This document shows, piece by piece, positions 2,676-22,336 of a stretch of DNA of 22,928 nt (positions within the stretch are counted from its first letter, which is position 1; each line of letters begins with the position of its first letter). Location of the stretch: positions 1-22,928 of the forward strand of contig CALBTC010000202.1 of the NCBI GenBank assembly GCA_937967805.1, in the 5' to 3' direction. The translations under genes and the position numbers were made by a program. The notes below the pieces were generated by a model. It saw only the letters and a list, made by a program, of their open reading frames with translations, was not told where the DNA came from and did not search any database. The DNA comes from an uncultured Anaerolineaceae bacterium. GTDB taxonomy: Bacteria; Chloroflexota; Anaerolineae; Promineifilales; Promineifilaceae.

Positions 2676-3635
2676 TTATGTGCCACAAGAATTCCCACCC
2701 CCTTGAGACTGGCTCAACAGCTCGTTTGCCGCCAACCATTGATTTACCTGGCTGTAACCACTGCCAGAAAAGATTTCACGGCTGGTAGCCAGGCGGGGAT
2801 CAACGTCAGCATAGTCCAGGCTCATAGTTGCTTTGAAGAATACGGCCGTTTCCACCACCTGCGGTGGGAACCAGAACCCATTCACCGCCTTAGCTGCGGC
2901 AAACATTTCATTCACTGTGGCATCTTGGCTGGCTAGCAGTTCCAGCAAACCCAGCATCGCCATGCCGTGGTTGCAATCGGCAAAAGCGGTGTGGTTATTG
3001 CAGCAGGGTCGGTAGACATTAAAGGCAACTTCTTCCAGCCGTGCTTGCTGCTCCAACGTGAGCGTAATCAACGGCTGGCTGGCATACAGCGCTGTGGCCG
3101 GATGGCGGCCCAAGGTCCAGCCGCCCGTCGAGGCAAATCGGCCGATATTTCCTTCACTGGCCTGCATCAGCGGCCCTTCTGTCAGGATGGGGTTCTGGTT
3201 CACCAGCCCTAAGGCCCAGAAAAAGTTGAGCACAAATCGTGCGTTTTGATAATCAATCACAATGGGTTCGTCGCTAGCCGTGTAGAGCAGCTCCTGTTGT
3301 GTCGTCGTTAACGGCCGTCCGCCGTCGGCATAAAGTTGAATGAAACGGTCAGCGTCAATCGCTCCGACAGCCACCAACTGGGGGCCGAGATTTCCCCAGC
3401 TAACCGGCAGCAGATGCTGCTCTGGCAAACGAATTTGGATAGAAGTGTCCGTTCCTGGGGCAGCAGGCTGGACGGGCCCGATGCTCCTATTTGTTGGCAG
3501 CTGTGTTCTGGCTGGAGCTGGAGTCCAGACTATTACAAGCACCAAAGTTAAAGTAAACAGACCAGCCAGCAAAAGCAAATGCCCACTTACCCCTTGCCGG
3601 GGAACGGCCGTTTCTTTCAAGTTTTCATCGGTCAT
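2676..3635 (-). CDS. Membrane-anchored protein with CC-H-C-H motif, function unknown
   Basis: I cannot name a family for this 319-residue protein. It has a single N-terminal membrane segment (about residues 19-37) and then an extracytoplasmic, largely alpha-helical region. A striking cluster Y-R-P-C-C-N-N-H-T-x4-D-C-N-H-G lies at residues 208-224 (Cys211, Cys212, His215, Cys221, His223). The chain ends G-N-S-C-G-T. A good ribosome site (GGGGG before ATG 3635) supports the start. It begins 9 nt after the stop of the upstream gene, so it is co-transcribed. The cluster suggests binding of a metal or haem or a redox disulfide; this is inference. Confidence 0.75.
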   Translation of the reverse strand: MTDENLKETAVPRQGVSGHLLLLAGLFTLTLVLVIVWTPAPARTQLPTNRSIGPVQPAAPGTDTSIQIRLPEQHLLPVSWGNLGPQLVAVGAIDADRFIQLYADGGRPLTTTQQELLYTASDEPIVIDYQNARFVLNFFWALGLVNQNPILTEGPLMQASEGNIGRFASTGGWTLGRHPATALYASQPLITLTLEQQARLEEVAFNVYRPCCNNHTAFADCNHGMAMLGLLELLASQDATVNEMFAAAKAVNGFWFPPQVVETAVFFKATMSLDYADVDPRLATSREIFSGSGYSQVNQWLAANELLSQSQGGGNSCGT

Positions 3636-13910: not shown

Positions 13911-15637
13911 ACTCACAGCGCTCGCGTCGTATCCCAAGTCTTCCCCTGCAGCTTTTTATTATTACCGTCCTACCCCTAACTTTGCTGCTCCTGACCATTG
14001 CTTTTGGTAGTCTTGGTTTGCACCAACGCGCCATGCGAACAATGGTCGGCGAACGGGATGAGCGTGCCACGCGGGCGGCATCGGCCGCCATTTCAGAACA
14101 GATTCATTATCGTCAATCAGCCATTCGCAGTGTTGCCCTTCAGGTGGCCAATGTTTCCGAACCAGAACACGCTCTGGCTGATGCCTCATTTCTATTACCG
14201 GAATTTGAGGGCGGTGTTGCCCTGTACACAATCAGTGGTGAATTATTAGCCGCCTCTAATGGGATTGAAGTTTGGCAAACACGCGCCATCCCAGAACGTT
14301 GGCCTGCATTTAGAGCTACCTCAGCCGCCAACACTGCTTATTTTTTACCTTCATTGGTTGATCCAATTCGCGATGAGGAATTGATGTTAATTGCGGCTGC
14401 AACCGATGAATTCATCGCCGTAGGTGCCTTTTCTCCTACCTCTCTTGTGCGTCAGGCGTTAGCCGACATCTTCAGCAGTAATGATCAGGCCGCTACTTAT
14501 GTGGTCACAATTGACGGTGAGATTTTGTATCAGGCCGGTACCCCCCATTGGTCAGATTCTCAGCTTGAAGCACACCCTGGTGTCGCTGCTGCTTTACGTG
14601 GTGAAAGCGGCACAACTTATCTCAACGTGGCCGGTGAAGAACATGTCATCGCCTTCAGCCCTATCACCCCCGTCGGTTGGGCCCTAGTGATTGAAGAGCC
14701 ATGGCGAGCGGTAACCGATCCTTTGCTCCGTGCCACTGAAATGGCGCCGCTTATCCTCATTCCCGTCTTGGTCATTGCCTTGGTTGCTCTAGGATTCGGT
14801 ATACGCCAGGTTGTGCAACCTCTTCAATCTTTAGAGAAAAAGGCGACTGAACTGGGTTGGGGCGATTTTGCTGCCATAGAGGAACCGGTAGGAGGCATTA
14901 ATGAAATTCAGCGCCTGCAAACGGAGCTAATCCATATGGCACGGAAGGTTCAGTTGGCACAGCAAAGTTTACGGGGCTATTTGAGTGCCGTTACCACCGG
15001 CCAGGAAGACGAGCGCCGGCGGCTGGCTCGCGATCTCCATGACGATACGATTCAGTCACTCATTGCCTTAAATCAACAAATTCAGCTGGCGCAAATGTCA
15101 GCCACAGAAAATGGGAACACAGACAGGCTAACAACTATGCAGCAAATGGCAGAGCAAATTGTGGCGGATTTACGCCGTCTAACAAGAGACCTGCGGCCGA
15201 TTTATCTAGAAGATTTAGGGCTGATTCCGGCATTGGAGATGTTGGGCCAGGATATGAGCCAATCTACGGGATTGCCAATTCTGTTTGAGAAAAGCGGAAG
15301 GGAGCAAAGATTGTCATCCAACGTTGAACTAGCCTTATATCGCATTGCCCAAGAAGGTTTAAGCAACGTCGTCCGTCATGCAGCAGCTAATCAGGCAAAG
15401 CTGTCCTTACAGTTTGGAAATGGGGAAGTGAATCTTGCCATCGAGGATGATGGCCTGGGTTTTGTCGTCCCGGAAAGCCCGGCAGAAATGGCACCAGCGG
15501 GACATTTTGGGCTATTGGGCGTACAAGAAAGGGCCGAAACGATAGGGGCACGGCTGCATATTAAGTCAGCGCCAGGTTGTGGGACTAGTTTACAAGTATC
15601 GTTAACGATGAGAGAGGATGTCGTTGATCAGAAGTAA
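13907..15637 (+). CDS. NarL-partner sensor histidine kinase (HisKA_3) with extracytoplasmic sensor domain
   Basis: This 576-residue kinase starts at TTG 13907, overlapping the regulator stop by 4 nt (TTGA), with CGGAG upstream. Membrane segment one is at about 13-33. An extracytoplasmic region of some 245 residues, resembling a double Cache sensor, is followed by membrane segment two at 280-300 and a HAMP region. The HisKA_3 motif R-R-R-L-A-R-D-L-H-D-D-T-I-Q has phosphorylated His378. The HATPase domain shows E-G-L-S-N-V-V-R-H-A (N box), E-D-D-G-L-G-F and G-H-F-G-L-L-G-V-Q-E-R-A (G boxes). All catalytic parts are present. No Cys or Met cluster in the sensor hints at the ligand. Confidence 0.95.
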   Translation: MNSQRSRRIPSLPLQLFIITVLPLTLLLLTIAFGSLGLHQRAMRTMVGERDERATRAASAAISEQIHYRQSAIRSVALQVANVSEPEHALADASFLLPEFEGGVALYTISGELLAASNGIEVWQTRAIPERWPAFRATSAANTAYFLPSLVDPIRDEELMLIAAATDEFIAVGAFSPTSLVRQALADIFSSNDQAATYVVTIDGEILYQAGTPHWSDSQLEAHPGVAAALRGESGTTYLNVAGEEHVIAFSPITPVGWALVIEEPWRAVTDPLLRATEMAPLILIPVLVIALVALGFGIRQVVQPLQSLEKKATELGWGDFAAIEEPVGGINEIQRLQTELIHMARKVQLAQQSLRGYLSAVTTGQEDERRRLARDLHDDTIQSLIALNQQIQLAQMSATENGNTDRLTTMQQMAEQIVADLRRLTRDLRPIYLEDLGLIPALEMLGQDMSQSTGLPILFEKSGREQRLSSNVELALYRIAQEGLSNVVRHAAANQAKLSLQFGNGEVNLAIEDDGLGFVVPESPAEMAPAGHFGLLGVQERAETIGARLHIKSAPGCGTSLQVSLTMREDVVDQK

Positions 15638-16658
15638 GCTCAATCAGCCCCAAATAGCAATTCCAAAGCAGATTAAATGGCTAGGAGTATTGCTGCTTTT
15701 GAGTGTGTTAATGGTGGCCAGTTGGCTGGTTTATCGACGGATAACGGCCGTTCCCCTTGGACAATCATTCGTTGGTCTGATACCGCTTACGGAGCTGGGC
15801 AACGACACTTATCGTGGTGCTCAAGGTGGCTTGTACCCAGAGGGTAGCAATGAACGGCCGTCTGACCATGAGGCCGCCGGAATTAAAATTGCCCAGACTA
15901 TACGGCCGTTGACCCATGATGGCTCTGTAGACATGGAAAATGGCAAAATCGGCTTTCTAGCCATTGGTATGTCCAACACCTCAATGGAATTTGAAACCTT
16001 TGCCTCACAAATCGATAATATTCCCCAGCTCAATCCCGCCCTGGTGATGGTTGATGGGGCACAAAACAGCAAAGCGTCCCAATTCGTAGCCAACCCTGAG
16101 GATGAGTATTGGACCGTGTTGGGCGAGCGGCTGGATGCGGCTAATTTAACCGATACGCAAGTCCAGATCGTATGGCTCAAGGAAGCGCGTGCTCGCACCC
16201 ATCTCCCCTTTCCGCTAGACGCACAGTTACTCAAAGCAGATTTGCGGGAAATTATTGAGCTATTGAGCCAGCGGTTTCCTAACCTGAAGATAGTATATCT
16301 CTCCAGCCGAACCTATGGTGGTTACGCCACCATTGATCTCAATCCGGAACCATATGCTTACCAATCCGCTTTTGCTGTTAAATGGCTCATTGAGGATCAA
16401 CTTGAAGGAGACGTGCGTCTGAACTACGATCCTGACAAAGGGACCGTCTACGCTCCCTGGCTTAGTTGGGGCCCTTATTTATGGGCCGATGGCCTTGCGG
16501 CTGAGCATGAGGCGTTAATTTGGGAACAGTCTGACTTTTCTTATGATGGCACGCACCCCTCCCCTTCTGGGCAAGCGAAGGTAGCGGGCCTACTGTATCA
16601 CTTTCTGCGCACGGATAAAACGGCCGTTGCTTGGTTTCTCTCTCCAAATAGCAGGTAA
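15618..16658 (+). CDS. SGNH-hydrolase-like membrane-anchored protein
   Basis: This 346-residue protein starts at ATG 15618 inside the last 20 nt of the kinase gene, with AGAGAGG before it. One N-terminal membrane segment (about 21-39) anchors an outside domain. A block I-like G-M-S-N-T-S with candidate nucleophile Ser119, and a C-terminal Y-D-G-T-H-P-S block with Asp310 and His313, give a Ser-Asp-His set as in SGNH/GDSL esterases. The intervening L-V-M-V-D-G-A-Q-N and S-S-R-T-Y-G-G-Y segments fit an alpha/beta fold. The substrate is unknown. The family link is reasonable but not certain, since block II and III residues are not standard. Confidence 0.72.
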   Translation: MSLIRSKLNQPQIAIPKQIKWLGVLLLLSVLMVASWLVYRRITAVPLGQSFVGLIPLTELGNDTYRGAQGGLYPEGSNERPSDHEAAGIKIAQTIRPLTHDGSVDMENGKIGFLAIGMSNTSMEFETFASQIDNIPQLNPALVMVDGAQNSKASQFVANPEDEYWTVLGERLDAANLTDTQVQIVWLKEARARTHLPFPLDAQLLKADLREIIELLSQRFPNLKIVYLSSRTYGGYATIDLNPEPYAYQSAFAVKWLIEDQLEGDVRLNYDPDKGTVYAPWLSWGPYLWADGLAAEHEALIWEQSDFSYDGTHPSPSGQAKVAGLLYHFLRTDKTAVAWFLSPNSR

Positions 16659-18617: not shown

Positions 18618-20738
18618 ATGAACGAAAACATGCATGAACACCACGAAGAAATGGATCATTCTCAACCTCATGGTGAGTCTAAACCCGAACAAATGATGGA
18701 TCACAGCAGCCACGATATGCATGGCGGCCATGACAACCATGATAAACACCAGGGACATGGCGGCCACGGCAACCATGCCGGGCACGAAATCATGTTTCGC
18801 GACCGCTTTTGGGTGTCGCTGGTGCTGAGTATTCCCGTCCTCTTTTTTAGTTCAGCCATTCAGGGCTGGCTAAACTACACGGCACCCGCTTTCCCCGGCA
18901 GTACCTGGATTACCCCGGTGTTGTCTGTCTTTATCTTTTTCTACGGCGGCCTACCTTTTTTACAAATGGCCACCTGGGAACTGCGCGACCGCCAGCCGGG
19001 CATGATGACGCTCATCTCGCTTGCCATTTCCGTCGCCTTTCTGTACAGCCTAGCCACCTTGGTTTTTGATCTAGGCGAGAGTTTCTTCTGGGAGCTGGTG
19101 ACCCTGATCGACGTGATGCTGTTAGGTCACTGGATGGAAATGCGCAGCGTGCGCCAGGCGTCCGGTGCGCTGGATGAGTTGGCCAAGCTGATGCCCGACG
19201 AAGCAGAGCGGATCGGCGATGATGACAGTACCCAAAAAGTAGCCGTCTCTGACCTGCAAACGGGCGATAAAGTGCTGGTGCGCCCCGGTGCAACCATTCC
19301 CGCCGACGGCACGGTGTACGACGGCCGTTCCGATGTCAATGAAGCGATGATCACTGGTGAGTCCAAGCTGGTGAAGAAGGAGCCGGACAGCCGAGCTATT
19401 GGCGGCACGGTCAATGAGGGCAGCGGCAGCCTACGCATTACAATAACAGCCACAGGTGACGATACGGCGCTCTCTGGCATTATGCGGCTGGTGAAAGAGG
19501 CCCAGGAAAGTAAATCAAAGACGCAGCTATTGGCTGACCGGGCCGCCGCGTTTCTCTTTTATGCGGCTCTGGGTTCAGCAGTTTTAACCGCTATTCTCTG
19601 GATCATTGCCACTGGGTTTAACGTCGAAGTGCTGAAGCGGGTGGTCACCGTGTTGGTCATTGCCTGTCCCCATGCCCTGGGTTTGGCTGTGCCGCTGGTG
19701 GTCTCACTCACTACCGCCATCTCTGCCCGCAACGGCATTCTGGTGCGGGACCGGCTGGCGCTGGAAGCCGCCCGAGACCTGGACATCATCATTTTTGACA
19801 AGACCGGCACCTTGACCAAAGGTGAACAAGGTGTCGTGAGCATTATTACCCAGGACGGCGTTTCTGAAAATGAGGCACTGGCTTTGGCGGCAGGGCTAGA
19901 AAGTGATTCTGAACATGCTGTTGCCCGAGCCATCGTGGCAGCAGCCGAGGAGCGTGAGATTGAACCCAAATCTGTCAGTGAGTTTGAAGCTTTAAAGGGT
20001 CGCGGGGTGCAGGCAGTGGTAGATGGAACGGCCGTTTATGCTGGCGGGCCTCGTCTGTTAGAGTATCTGGAAATCCAATTGCCTGATGCCATTGCTAAAT
20101 TTAGCCAGGCAGCCGGTGAAAAGGGGCAGGCGGTCATCTATCTCATTCGTGAGAGCGATGTCGTTGCTGCTTTTGCCCTGGCTGATGTCATCCGCGAGGA
20201 AAGCCGACAGGCGATTCAAAAACTGCACGAGATGGGGATTGAGGTGGCCATGCTCACCGGTGACAGCGAAGATGTGGCCAAAGCCGTCGCCGCAGAGTTG
20301 AACATTGACCGCTACTTTGCCGAAGTGCTGCCAGAAGACAAGGACAAAAAGGTGCGCGAGTTGCAAAAGCAGGGCAAAAAAGTGGCGATGGTCGGGGATG
20401 GCGTCAATGACGCCCCAGCTCTGACACGGGCGGACATTGGCATCGCCATCGGCAGCGGCACAGACGTGGCGGTAGAATCTGCTGGCCTGATTCTGGTGCG
20501 CTCCAATCCGCTGGATGTGGTGAAGATCATTACCTTGAGCAAAGCCAGCCAGCGCAAAATGGTGCAAAATATTTGGTGGGCGGCCGGGTATAACATCATT
20601 GCCATTCCGCTAGCAGCGGGTGTCCTGGCCCCGTGGGGCTTTGATTTGCCCCCGGCGGTTGGCGCGCTGGTGATGTCGCTCAGCACCATCATTGTGGCGA
20701 TTAACGCCCAAACACTGCGCCGAATATCTTTTACTTAA
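18618..20738 (+). CDS. copB: Copper-translocating P-type ATPase, CopB (P1B-3) type
   Basis: This 706-residue protein starts at ATG 18618 with GAGAGGT eight nt upstream. The first 55 residues are extremely His/Met rich and replace the usual HMA domains. The transmembrane metal site is C-P-H (Cys350-Pro351-His352), the mark of CopB-type P1B ATPases. Catalytic motifs are complete: T-G-E-S (246-249), D-K-T-G-T with phosphorylated Asp394, M-L-T-G-D, and G-D-G-V-N-D (593-598). The nucleotide-domain HP motif reads S-E-H-A instead of S-E-H-P. The enzyme exports copper, probably using ATP in the cytoplasm. It is followed by a strong terminator, and the HMA/YHS genes lie about 5 kb upstream. Confidence 0.96.
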
Positions 20739-20842: not shown

Positions 20843-20860
20843 GTGAGTGAGAATCTATCT

Positions 20861-21343
20861 ATGCGCTACTTTCTTGTTTTGGCTTTATTTTTAGTGGCTT
20901 GCCAACAGGCAGGAACCTCTTCCCTAAATAATGCAGAGACAACGGCCGTTCCCCCGGGACCCACACTTTCTCCTCAACAGATCAGCCTGGGAGAAACGGT
21001 GTACGCGCAGCAGTGCGCCAGCTGCCACGGCGTCAACCTGGAAGGCCAGCCAGAGTGGAAATCCCAAAACGAAGATGGCTCATTCCGCGCCCCGCCCCAT
21101 GATGAAAGCGGCCACACTTGGCATCATGGCGATCCGACCTTGCTGGAAGCGATTTATGCTGGCGGAGCCCGCTTTGCGGATATGAATATTGGCGGCACAA
21201 GCAATATGCCTGCCTTTGCTGATACTTTGAGCGATGCGGAGATAACGTCCGTTCTAACTTACATCAAAAGCACCTGGCCAGATGATATTCAAGCAATACA
21301 GTGGGAAGCTACCTTGCGTGAAGAATTGCAGGATGAACAGTAA
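20861..21343 (+). CDS. c-type cytochrome lipoprotein (monohaem)
   Basis: This 160-residue protein starts at ATG 20861, chosen because it gives a clean lipoprotein signal peptide (lipobox L-V-A-C, Cys14); the frame also opens at GTG 20843. After a Pro/Thr linker comes a class I cytochrome c domain with haem motif C-A-S-C-H (Cys52, Cys55, His56) and a likely Met axial ligand in S-N-M-P-A-F. A characteristic block P-P-H-D-E-S-G-H-T-W-H-H lies between. The next gene is a close paralogue. It should be a client of the CcmF/CcmH system in this window. It probably passes electrons at the outer membrane face; the partner is unknown. Confidence 0.93.
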   Translation: MRYFLVLALFLVACQQAGTSSLNNAETTAVPPGPTLSPQQISLGETVYAQQCASCHGVNLEGQPEWKSQNEDGSFRAPPHDESGHTWHHGDPTLLEAIYAGGARFADMNIGGTSNMPAFADTLSDAEITSVLTYIKSTWPDDIQAIQWEATLREELQDEQ

Positions 21344-21359
21344 AAGGAATTTGGCACGA

Positions 21360-21866
21360 ATGTCTAGAAAGAGTGTAACTTCTAAAAAGAAAAGAAAAGT
21401 AGCCCAGCAGCGTGCAAAAAGAAATCAGCGAATACTGTGGGGCGGACTTTTAGCTAGTGTACTATTCATTTTGGTGGGTGCAATTGCTTCGTTATCTTCT
21501 CAGCCATCTTATGAAATCGATCCAGCTAACCCCCAACTAGTGGCCTTGGGCCAACAAGTGTATGAAACACAATGTGCTGGTTGCCATGGACCCGATTTAG
21601 AAGGGGAAGTTGACTGGAATCTACCCAGCCCTGACGGATTAATTAAGGCACCGCCTCATGATGAAACTGGTCATACCTGGCATCACAATAATGTCTATCT
21701 CATTGAATCGATTGCCAAAGGTGGTGCCCGCTTGCCTGCCGACGTGGGTGTCAGTGCCATGCCTGCCTATGAAACTATTTTGAGTCAGGAAGAGATTGGG
21801 GCCGTGCTATCTTACATTCAAAGCACCTGGCCTGCTGACATTTTGGCGCAACAATCACAACGATGA
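21360..21866 (+). CDS. Membrane-anchored c-type cytochrome (monohaem)
   Basis: This 168-residue protein starts at ATG 21360 after AAAAGGAA; upstream in-frame ATGs at 21282 and 21333 overlap the previous gene. A very basic N-terminus (residues 1-24) is followed by one membrane helix (about 26-46). The cytochrome c domain has C-A-G-C-H (Cys72, Cys75, His76), P-P-H-D-E-T-G-H-T-W-H-H and Met in S-A-M-P-A-Y. It is a tandem paralogue of the cytochrome before it, with a transmembrane anchor instead of a lipid. Its TGA stop overlaps the ribosome site of the selenothioredoxin gene. Confidence 0.93.
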   Translation: MSRKSVTSKKKRKVAQQRAKRNQRILWGGLLASVLFILVGAIASLSSQPSYEIDPANPQLVALGQQVYETQCAGCHGPDLEGEVDWNLPSPDGLIKAPPHDETGHTWHHNNVYLIESIAKGGARLPADVGVSAMPAYETILSQEEIGAVLSYIQSTWPADILAQQSQR

Positions 21867-21877
21867 GGCAAAACAGT

Positions 21878-22336
21878 ATGAAATTTATCAAGCTCTTGTT
21901 GATAACGTCCGTTCTGTTCGGTTTTGGTTTGACTGCCTGTTCCGGGCAAAGTGAGCCAGAAAACGAGGAGGAGCCAACTGTTCAGGGTCCAGCACTCCTC
22001 ATGTTTTACACCGACAACTGAGCGCCCTGACAGGCGATGACACCCATCGTGAATGGGTTAGAAGAAGAATTCTCTGGACAGCTCACTGTGCAGCAACTAA
22101 ATGCAGAAGAAGTAGAAAATGCCCAGTTGATGCAGGAGTACGGCTTGCGTGGCCATCCATCCTTTGCTATTTTGACGGAAGATGGCCGACTTTCGAAAAC
22201 CTTCTTTGGACCACAAAGTGAAGCCCAGCTACGGAAAGCAATCCAAGCCATAGTGCCTATATCAGAATCACCCATAGGTTTTCGTATATCCACTATTAGA
22301 TTAACCAACCCACTGAAACCAATAGCAAGGAATTAA
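21878..22336 (+). CDS. Selenocysteine-containing thioredoxin-like lipoprotein (U-A-P-U active site)
   Basis: The frame from ATG 21878 (GAGG nine nt before it) runs to the stop at 22336, giving 152 residues if two in-frame TGAs are read as selenocysteine. The lipobox L-T-A-C gives Cys21, followed by an acidic linker. The thioredoxin domain then reads P-A-L-L-M-F-Y-T-D-N-U48-A-P-U51-Q-A-M-T-P-I-V. The TGAs (22019-22021 and 22028-22030) sit exactly at the two CxxC cysteines. After them the frame continues as good thioredoxin: L-T-V-Q-Q-L-N, Y-G-L-R-G-H-P-S-F with cis-Pro94, and E-D-G-R-L-S-K-T-F-F-G. A SECIS-like hairpin follows the second TGA. The last 25 residues extend beyond the usual fold. 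A pseudogene is unlikely, because two random stops would not fall on both catalytic positions while the rest stays intact. Selenocysteine genes are not in the window, so the reading remains inferred. Confidence 0.82.
22042..22058 (+). promoter_or_regulatory. Candidate bacterial SECIS hairpin
   Basis: ACCCAT (22042-22047) pairs with ATGGGT (22053-22058) around loop CGTGA, giving a 6-bp stem with a 5-nt loop whose second base is G. The loop begins 18 nt after the second TGA and 27 nt after the first. As I recall the bacterial SECIS model, it asks for a G in the first two loop bases and a UGA-to-loop spacing in the range of about 16-37 nt, so one hairpin could serve both codons. A competing stem CGATG/CATCG (22035-22049) also exists. 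Folding was done by eye. Confidence 0.55.

Follow-up and report, generated by a model that had tools for sequence, protein, structure and literature searches.

Does a thioredoxin-like gene with TGA codons at the places of both catalytic cysteines encode a protein with two selenocysteine (Sec) residues in one UxxU site, or should it be read in another way? This question was raised by a locus of an uncultured Chloroflexota bacterium, located in a stretch of DNA of 22,928 nt that was analyzed as a whole (hereafter, the window). The preliminary description of the locus proposed an extracytoplasmic UxxU selenothioredoxin. Both TGAs proved to be conserved in the family, with Cys at the TGA positions in related genes; the selenothioredoxin reading was further borne out by a hairpin found in the Sec genes and broken in the Cys genes, and by parts of the Sec machinery in the genomes of 11/13 relatives.

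The frame proposed initially, from ATG 21878 to 22336, was reproduced with its coordinates and both TGAs: it is a single frame whose only internal stops are the TGAs of codons 48 and 51. The gene and its parts are as follows:

21878..22336, + strand, UxxU thioredoxin-like lipoprotein gene, 152 codons plus stop, two in-frame TGAs; the arrangement is common to 13/13 relatives
21878..21940, + strand, signal sequence ending in lipobox L-T-A-C (residues 18–21), by eye
22001..22003, + strand, Met42 at the place of the buried acid, from the alignment of 60 genes
22019..22021, + strand, first TGA, codon 48, proposed Sec (attacking position), from the sequence
22028..22030, + strand, second TGA, codon 51, proposed Sec (resolving position), from the sequence
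22157..22159, + strand, Pro94, cis-Pro position of the thioredoxin fold, invariant in 14/14

The frame could also start at ATG 21863, which overlaps the stop of the cytochrome gene upstream. Reading through the TGAs yielded the N-U-A-P-U-Q motif at the CxxC site, as described. The lipoprotein signal was recognized by eye as a hydrophobic signal followed by L-T-A-C, in line with the lipobox rule for lipoproteins; A-C or G-C occupied this place across the 14 rows of the family alignment (also by eye). With Cys standing for Sec, the thioredoxin domain named in the preliminary description matched Pfam Thioredoxin PF00085 over residues 37–123 (E 8.3e-13; 48.7 bits against a cut-off of 23.5). The supposed cis-Pro94 was found in His93-Pro94 at the cis-Pro position, G92-H93-P94 being invariant in the 14-row alignment. 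From the 14-row family alignment, in which Sec was replaced by Cys, AlphaFold2 gave a thioredoxin fold with a mean pLDDT of 84.1 and block means of 96–98 across residues 41–120. The best matches to this model among solved structures were thioredoxins (Foldseek, VIA-align); VIA-align shows thioredoxin-like chains only, because it re-ranks Foldseek's own matches.

The classical W-C-G-P-C-K site with a buried Asp was absent from the window protein, which has N-U-A-P-U-Q and Met at the Asp position. None of the NCBIfam models reached its cut-off: the protein scored below those of the TrxA equivalogs (45.2 bits vs. 138 and 44.7 vs. 96.8) and of NCBIfam TsoB, HUIPC Trx and PDO_seleno_TRX (16.3/805, 16.1/105 and 21.3/185 bits, respectively), and no match to PF00578 (Prx-like) was found in it at E 1e-3. 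Nothing equivalent to the last ~24 residues (22263–22336) is found in relatives; it looks as though the gene had lost its original stop.

Gene callers were expected to report a 99-residue C-terminal fragment; translation table 11 yields just that, and database entry P0002 is an identical piece. A protein search with the window protein and one match gave 217 proteins at E up to 0.01, and 118 of the 120 listed start just after the motif (P0110 starts a few residues later). These database matches are fragments from pipelines treating TGA as a stop; several are annotated as 'thioredoxin-like negative regulator of GroEL'. By retaining only short C-terminal fragments, gene callers keep the family out of sight in databases. 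One full-length member, P0106, on a 500-base contig, has Trp at both Sec positions, probably as a result of a gene call under genetic code 4 (table 4).

We scanned GTDB r220 contigs with the peptide patterns M[TM]PIVNGL and EEEF[SE]GQ[LI] and found 13 loci, every one from Chloroflexota MAGs; peptide identity at these patterns was selected for, since the loci were found by them, and codon identity was not. Both TGAs were in frame, with no Cys there, in 13/13 relatives, which excludes a chance origin. A search of viral contigs for the exact TGA-6-TGA-hairpin pattern gave 0 matches. Further searches with UxxU profile scoring covered 400 genomes of the phylum and 41 genomes around G009; the best 30 and the best 22 of all matches, respectively, were compared, and these best loci comprised 11 more UxxU genes and many UxxC and CxxC kin. 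The resulting comparison of 60 sequences consisted of 25 UxxU, 20 UxxC and 15 CxxC genes, the 15 Cys genes being a non-random sample with several distant members. Left out were L066 and L096–L099, which are the same genes as L001, L009, L008, L010 and L007, and L092, a Chloroflexota relative with a single TGA and neither Cys nor TGA at the partner position. The alignment of homologues, suggested earlier as a check, showed Cys at the TGA positions in related genes (15 CxxC, 20 UxxC); the in-frame UGAs of the 25 UxxU genes stand at the place of the catalytic Cys of these homologues.

A conserved hairpin was found downstream of the TGAs:

22042..22058, + strand, SECIS-type hairpin, stem 22042–22047 with 22053–22058 (6 bp), loop CGUGA 22048–22052

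From 12 nt past the second TGA, CCC ATC GTG AAT GGG was identical at every base in 14/14 sequences; it folds as CCCAU-CGUGA-AUGGG. The chance of all 14 sharing these five codons under the family's own codon usage, with the sequences taken as independent, was log10 P -38.8, a value which overstates the case because the 14 sequences are related. The outer pair, the one pair that varies in the 14-row set, was G-C in 8, A-U in 4 and G-U in 2, and the observed covariation was reached in 9/500 shuffles. Among the 45 TGA-bearing genes, compensatory changes were found at three inner pairs: one was C-G in 37, U-A in 6, U-G in 1 and G-C in 1; another was A-U in 36, G-C in 8 and U-A in 1; and the third was U-A in 42, U-G in 1, C-G in 1 and unpaired in 1. 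The inner five pairs were intact in 24/25 UxxU, 19/20 UxxC and 0/15 Cys genes, neither the losses in Cys genes nor the 45 hairpins being independent events; one inner pair was broken in each of UxxU gene L073 and UxxC gene L089. The first places of the loop were G followed by G or U in 25/25 UxxU, 20/20 UxxC and 10/15 Cys genes, and the median hairpin energies were -7.7, -7.6 and +3.5 kcal/mol, respectively. In the UxxC kin, the hairpin lies at the same place, its loop beginning 26 nt after the sole UGA. The UxxC rows with such a SECIS-type hairpin and compensatory changes were L072, L074, L075, L078–L082, L084–L087, L089, L090, L094, L104–L106, L108 and L111.

The bacterial SECIS model, as outlined in the inventory of PMC13188914, has a stem of 4–16 bp, a loop of 3–9 nt with G in the first two places, a distance of 16–37 nt from the UGA to the loop and an energy at or below -7.5 kcal/mol. 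The window hairpin agrees with its geometry: 6 bp, a 5-nt loop CGUGA, and a loop start 26 nt after the first TGA and 17 nt after the second. By itself, the 17-nt hairpin had -6.0 kcal/mol, short of the quoted -7.5, and the 57-nt stretch holding it had -14.3; 13/25 UxxU hairpins were at or below -7.5 kcal/mol. Within the 57-nt stretch, the conserved hairpin was 0.1 kcal/mol from the optimum with a mean pair probability of 0.48. The minimum-energy fold of 22019–22062 was a different hairpin, and other short stretches gave different or mixed hairpins. Low pair probability was predicted for four UxxC hairpins (L079, L085, L104 and L111). Nothing in the window matched Rfam at E up to 1. Judged by its sequence, the hairpin is a predicted bacterial SECIS-type element, and with the loop 26 nt from the first UGA and 17 nt from the second, one such element apparently serves both. 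The hairpin of one Cys gene, L103, whose genome (G433) lacks SelB, is one pair short of complete; it is perhaps a relic of a Sec ancestor.

The machinery for Sec incorporation was analyzed in the genomes of the 13 relatives. All four components (SelA, SelB, SelD and tRNA-Sec) were found in 8/13, two or three in 3/13, and none in 2/13. SelB was above the cut-off in 11/13 genomes, SelA was found in 10/13 and SelD in 9/13, seven of the latter being full length with their own in-frame TGA. tRNA-Sec with the anticodon UCA was found by ARAGORN in 10/13 genomes; the Rfam tRNA-Sec cut-off was passed in 12/13, two of the 12 being tRNA-Ser. SelB and SelD were within 10 kb of each other in G001, G003 and G004, and tRNA-Sec was located near a tRNA-Phe, tRNA-Gly and tRNA-Cys cluster in five genomes (L018, L019, L021, L022 and L023). 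SelB was present in 18/21 genomes holding a UxxU gene and missing in G008, G009 and G398. In the phylum sample, it was present in 310/400 genomes at E 1e-65: in 31/34 TGA-bearing genomes (among the matches listed, by eye) vs. 279/366 others (one-sided Fisher P 0.03), which is a weak test of co-occurrence because SelB is common.

The composition of the active site was compared in the same 60 genes. The buried-acid position corresponds to Asp26 of E. coli thioredoxin. An acid (D or E) was found there in 19/20 UxxC and 9/15 CxxC genes and in 0/25 UxxU genes (F in 14, M in 6, Y in 4 and L in 1); taken as one lineage, the UxxU genes represent about one event of acid loss. Trp preceding the motif was absent from all UxxU genes (0/25) and present in 9/20 UxxC and 13/15 CxxC genes, while Pro inside the motif was retained in 23/25 UxxU genes. 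Selenols are soft ligands with a low pKa. The missing acid would fit a resolving residue that can do without a general base, a selenol being ionised already. In the tree of 60 domains, which was based on 94 columns and left many forks unresolved, the 25 UxxU genes require 2 label changes; a supported group of 27 comprised all of them together with one UxxC and one CxxC row, both of uncertain placement, and a single UxxU origin was recovered in 66% of 200 bootstrap trees. The simplest history would be a change of the partner Cys to Sec at a time when the element was present already. The loss of the acid suggests that a return of UxxU to Cys would be hard.

Upstream of the thioredoxin gene, the following genes were found on the same strand:

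18618..20738, + strand, P1B-type metal-transporting ATPase (Pfam E1-E2_ATPase, E 7e-47)
20843..21343, + strand, c-type cytochrome gene (Pfam Cytochrom_C, E 1.3e-11)
21360..21866, + strand, c-type cytochrome gene (Pfam Cytochrom_C, E 9.8e-11), start by eye, alternative ATG 21282

The thioredoxin gene begins 11 nt after the second cytochrome gene. Its position directly after two c-type cytochromes, pointed out earlier, is thus true in the window; a similar cytochrome c was encoded within 5 kb in 9/13 relatives and a P1B-type ATPase like that of the window in 10/13 (raw counts). From its His-rich N-terminus and CPH motif, seen by eye, we take the window ATPase to be CopB-like. The opposite strand encodes AhpC/TSA-like, cupredoxin, DUF1573 (twice) and PCYCGC proteins (Pfam), as well as genes which, by eye, are presumably CcmF, CcmH, CcmG and CcdA-like. 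Other neighbours in the relatives were DUF3105, AhpC/TSA, DsbA-like and haem-binding proteins. No Pfam match at E 1e-3 was found for 2676–3635 and 15618–16658 of the window (319 and 346 residues, respectively). The DUF1573 and PCYCGC lipoproteins at 1754–2158 and 2164–2739 of the window have Cys codons here; Sec forms of both families are included in Table 1 of PMC13188914.

With a probability of roughly 0.8, the gene encodes a membrane-anchored extracytoplasmic double-Sec thioredoxin with a role in thiol redox reactions, both UGAs being recoded by SelB under one SECIS element. SelB would recode the two UGAs, nine bases apart, with the single hairpin just downstream of the second; conservation and covariation speak for this, as do the broken hairpins of the Cys genes and the machinery in relatives. 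The product would then be exported, lipidated and anchored outside the membrane, where the two Sec may cycle between selenolates and an intramolecular diselenide; the electrons may go to oxidised thiols or to Cys sites that bind metals. Fold and neighbours point to the role of an extracytoplasmic reductant. The very low redox potentials of diselenides, as stated in PMC2397514, fit a strong reductant. More weakly, the neighbouring genes hint that the protein works where c-type cytochromes or copper proteins are matured or repaired.

Alternatively, the two Sec of a UxxU selenoprotein could bind a soft metal, e.g., Cu(I) or Hg(II), the protein being a chaperone or scavenger not involved in thiol redox reactions. 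The softness of selenolates as ligands and the P1B-type ATPase in 10/13 neighbourhoods agree with this function, and a UxxU metal-binding protein, NF041115, appears in Table 1 of PMC13188914. However, the full thioredoxin fold with its cis-Pro, the Pro between the Sec positions in 23/25 genes, as in redox thioredoxins, and the cytochrome c neighbours in 9/13 relatives argue against it. We consider metal binding unlikely as the function of the protein; a soft-metal binder acting in cytochrome or copper protein maturation is likewise less likely than a reductant.

The double-Sec reading is challenged by G008 and G009 (loci L008 and L009), close sister genomes in which none of tRNA-Sec, SelA, SelB and SelD were found. 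G009 contains one UxxU gene and G008 contains three, and the inner stem is intact in all four. Two of these genes were compared:

L008:6056-6454, UxxU gene, genome G008
L009:9914-10312, UxxU gene, genome G009

Their divergence (dN 0.041, dS 0.300, dN/dS about 0.14; 3' of the first TGA, dN 0.054, dS 0.399) indicates that the UxxU genes of the two genomes are under purifying selection. The G009 assembly consists of long contigs (largest seen 2.7 Mb), with 45 tRNAs above the cut-off for 19 amino acids; Ile alone was uncalled, and tRNA-Ile often sits in rRNA operons. No UCA tRNA was found among 67 candidate pattern matches in G008 and G009 (ARAGORN) or among the 45 tRNAs of G009, the genome in which the tRNAs were surveyed in full. 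Two of the 13 genomes have a second, divergent tRNA-Cys(GCA) (L223:101-173 in G009 and L229 in G007); as an alternative decoder in G009 it was dropped, because G007, a genome with Sec machinery, has a relative of it and G008 does not. In the other genomes, the four Sec genes are spread over at least two distant places, and therefore a single assembly gap would hardly remove all of them. Incomplete assemblies or recent loss are the likeliest explanations for the missing machinery. It is improbable that canonical machinery is truly absent from this lineage and that both UGAs are read by an unrecognised route under purifying selection.

Still less credible is a reading of UGA as Cys, Trp or another residue via a suppressor tRNA or an altered code. 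G008 and G009, with the gene and no Sec machinery found, are compatible with it, as is P0106 with Trp at both places, probably a table-4 gene call. The SECIS-type hairpin is, however, specific to TGA-bearing genes, tRNA-Sec(UCA), SelA, SelB and SelD are present in most relatives, and the tRNA searches in G008 and G009 revealed no UCA anticodon. Furthermore, UxxC kin have TGA at one of the two Cys positions only; hence TGA does not generally encode Cys here.

There is very little to recommend the C-terminal piece as the real product, with translation starting from the Met shortly downstream of the second TGA. This Met is invariant in the first 14 rows, and such pieces are found in databases; nevertheless, it is present in 21/25 UxxU genes rather than in all, neither the first core strand nor the active site of the AlphaFold2 model would be part of the piece, and the upstream signal, lipobox and strand remain in frame. 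Finally, decay or sequencing error in a dying gene, suggested by the stop codons themselves and nothing more, can be practically dismissed, since the same two TGAs occur in 13/13 relatives from separate assemblies, 118/120 listed database matches are truncated at the same place, the frame is retained on either side of the TGAs, and nonsynonymous divergence is lower than synonymous both for L008 vs. L009 (values above) and for the window vs. L001 (dN 0.18, dS saturated).

The double-Sec thioredoxin was compared with known selenoproteins. The 2026 inventory (PMC13188914) contains 119 prokaryotic selenoprotein families, with PF00085 thioredoxin entered as UxxC with one Sec; this bacterial selenothioredoxin is marked in its Table 1 as experimentally verified, and its main text has three mentions of 'UxxU', which concern PF00578, NF041115 and FmdB-like proteins. 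The window protein shares domain and fold with bacterial selenothioredoxin, and its Chloroflexota UxxC kin share the place of the hairpin. However, that protein has one Sec and keeps the resolving Cys, and the buried acid separates 19/20 UxxC kin from 0/25 UxxU genes. Selenoprotein L (SelL), described, also from marine bacteria, as a UxxU protein with a diselenide (PMC2397514), likewise has two Sec in a redox motif and can form a diselenide; according to PMC2398784, SelL is Prx-like, whereas the window protein is a predicted lipoprotein that matches PF00085 and not PF00578 at E 1e-3. The UxxU sequences of GOS are assigned to the Prx-like family in the same source (GOS Prx-like 2, PMC2398784). 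These and the PF00578 Prx-like thiol:disulfide oxidoreductases are, by the accounts cited, bacterial UxxU proteins of thioredoxin-like fold as well, but they belong to different domain families in which UxxU is occasional beside UxxC; among the 25 UxxU genes studied here, no UxxC or Cys gene is nested, bar the two uncertainly placed rows. UxxU SELENOW, described in amphioxus and Ostreococcus (PMC7539508), similarly gained a second Sec at the partner Cys position; unlike the window family, it is, on that account, eukaryotic, of a different fold family and sporadic. In the literature covered, mainly open-access, we found neither a UxxU PF00085 thioredoxin nor the present Chloroflexota family described. 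What is new is a selenothioredoxin that became a double-Sec, lipid-anchored protein.

Natural diselenide proteins are few, and so are testable systems for why enzymes use two Sec. Here, both catalytic sulfurs are replaced in a thioredoxin of one small domain, whose redox fold has been studied very thoroughly, and the UxxU form is stable through 25 genes with the buried acid lost alongside; the UxxC and CxxC kin are ready controls. One hairpin within the SECIS range of two UGAs would make a simple system for how SelB handles two recodings per element. For a natural redox enzyme with a diselenide, the gene provides a clear case to test.
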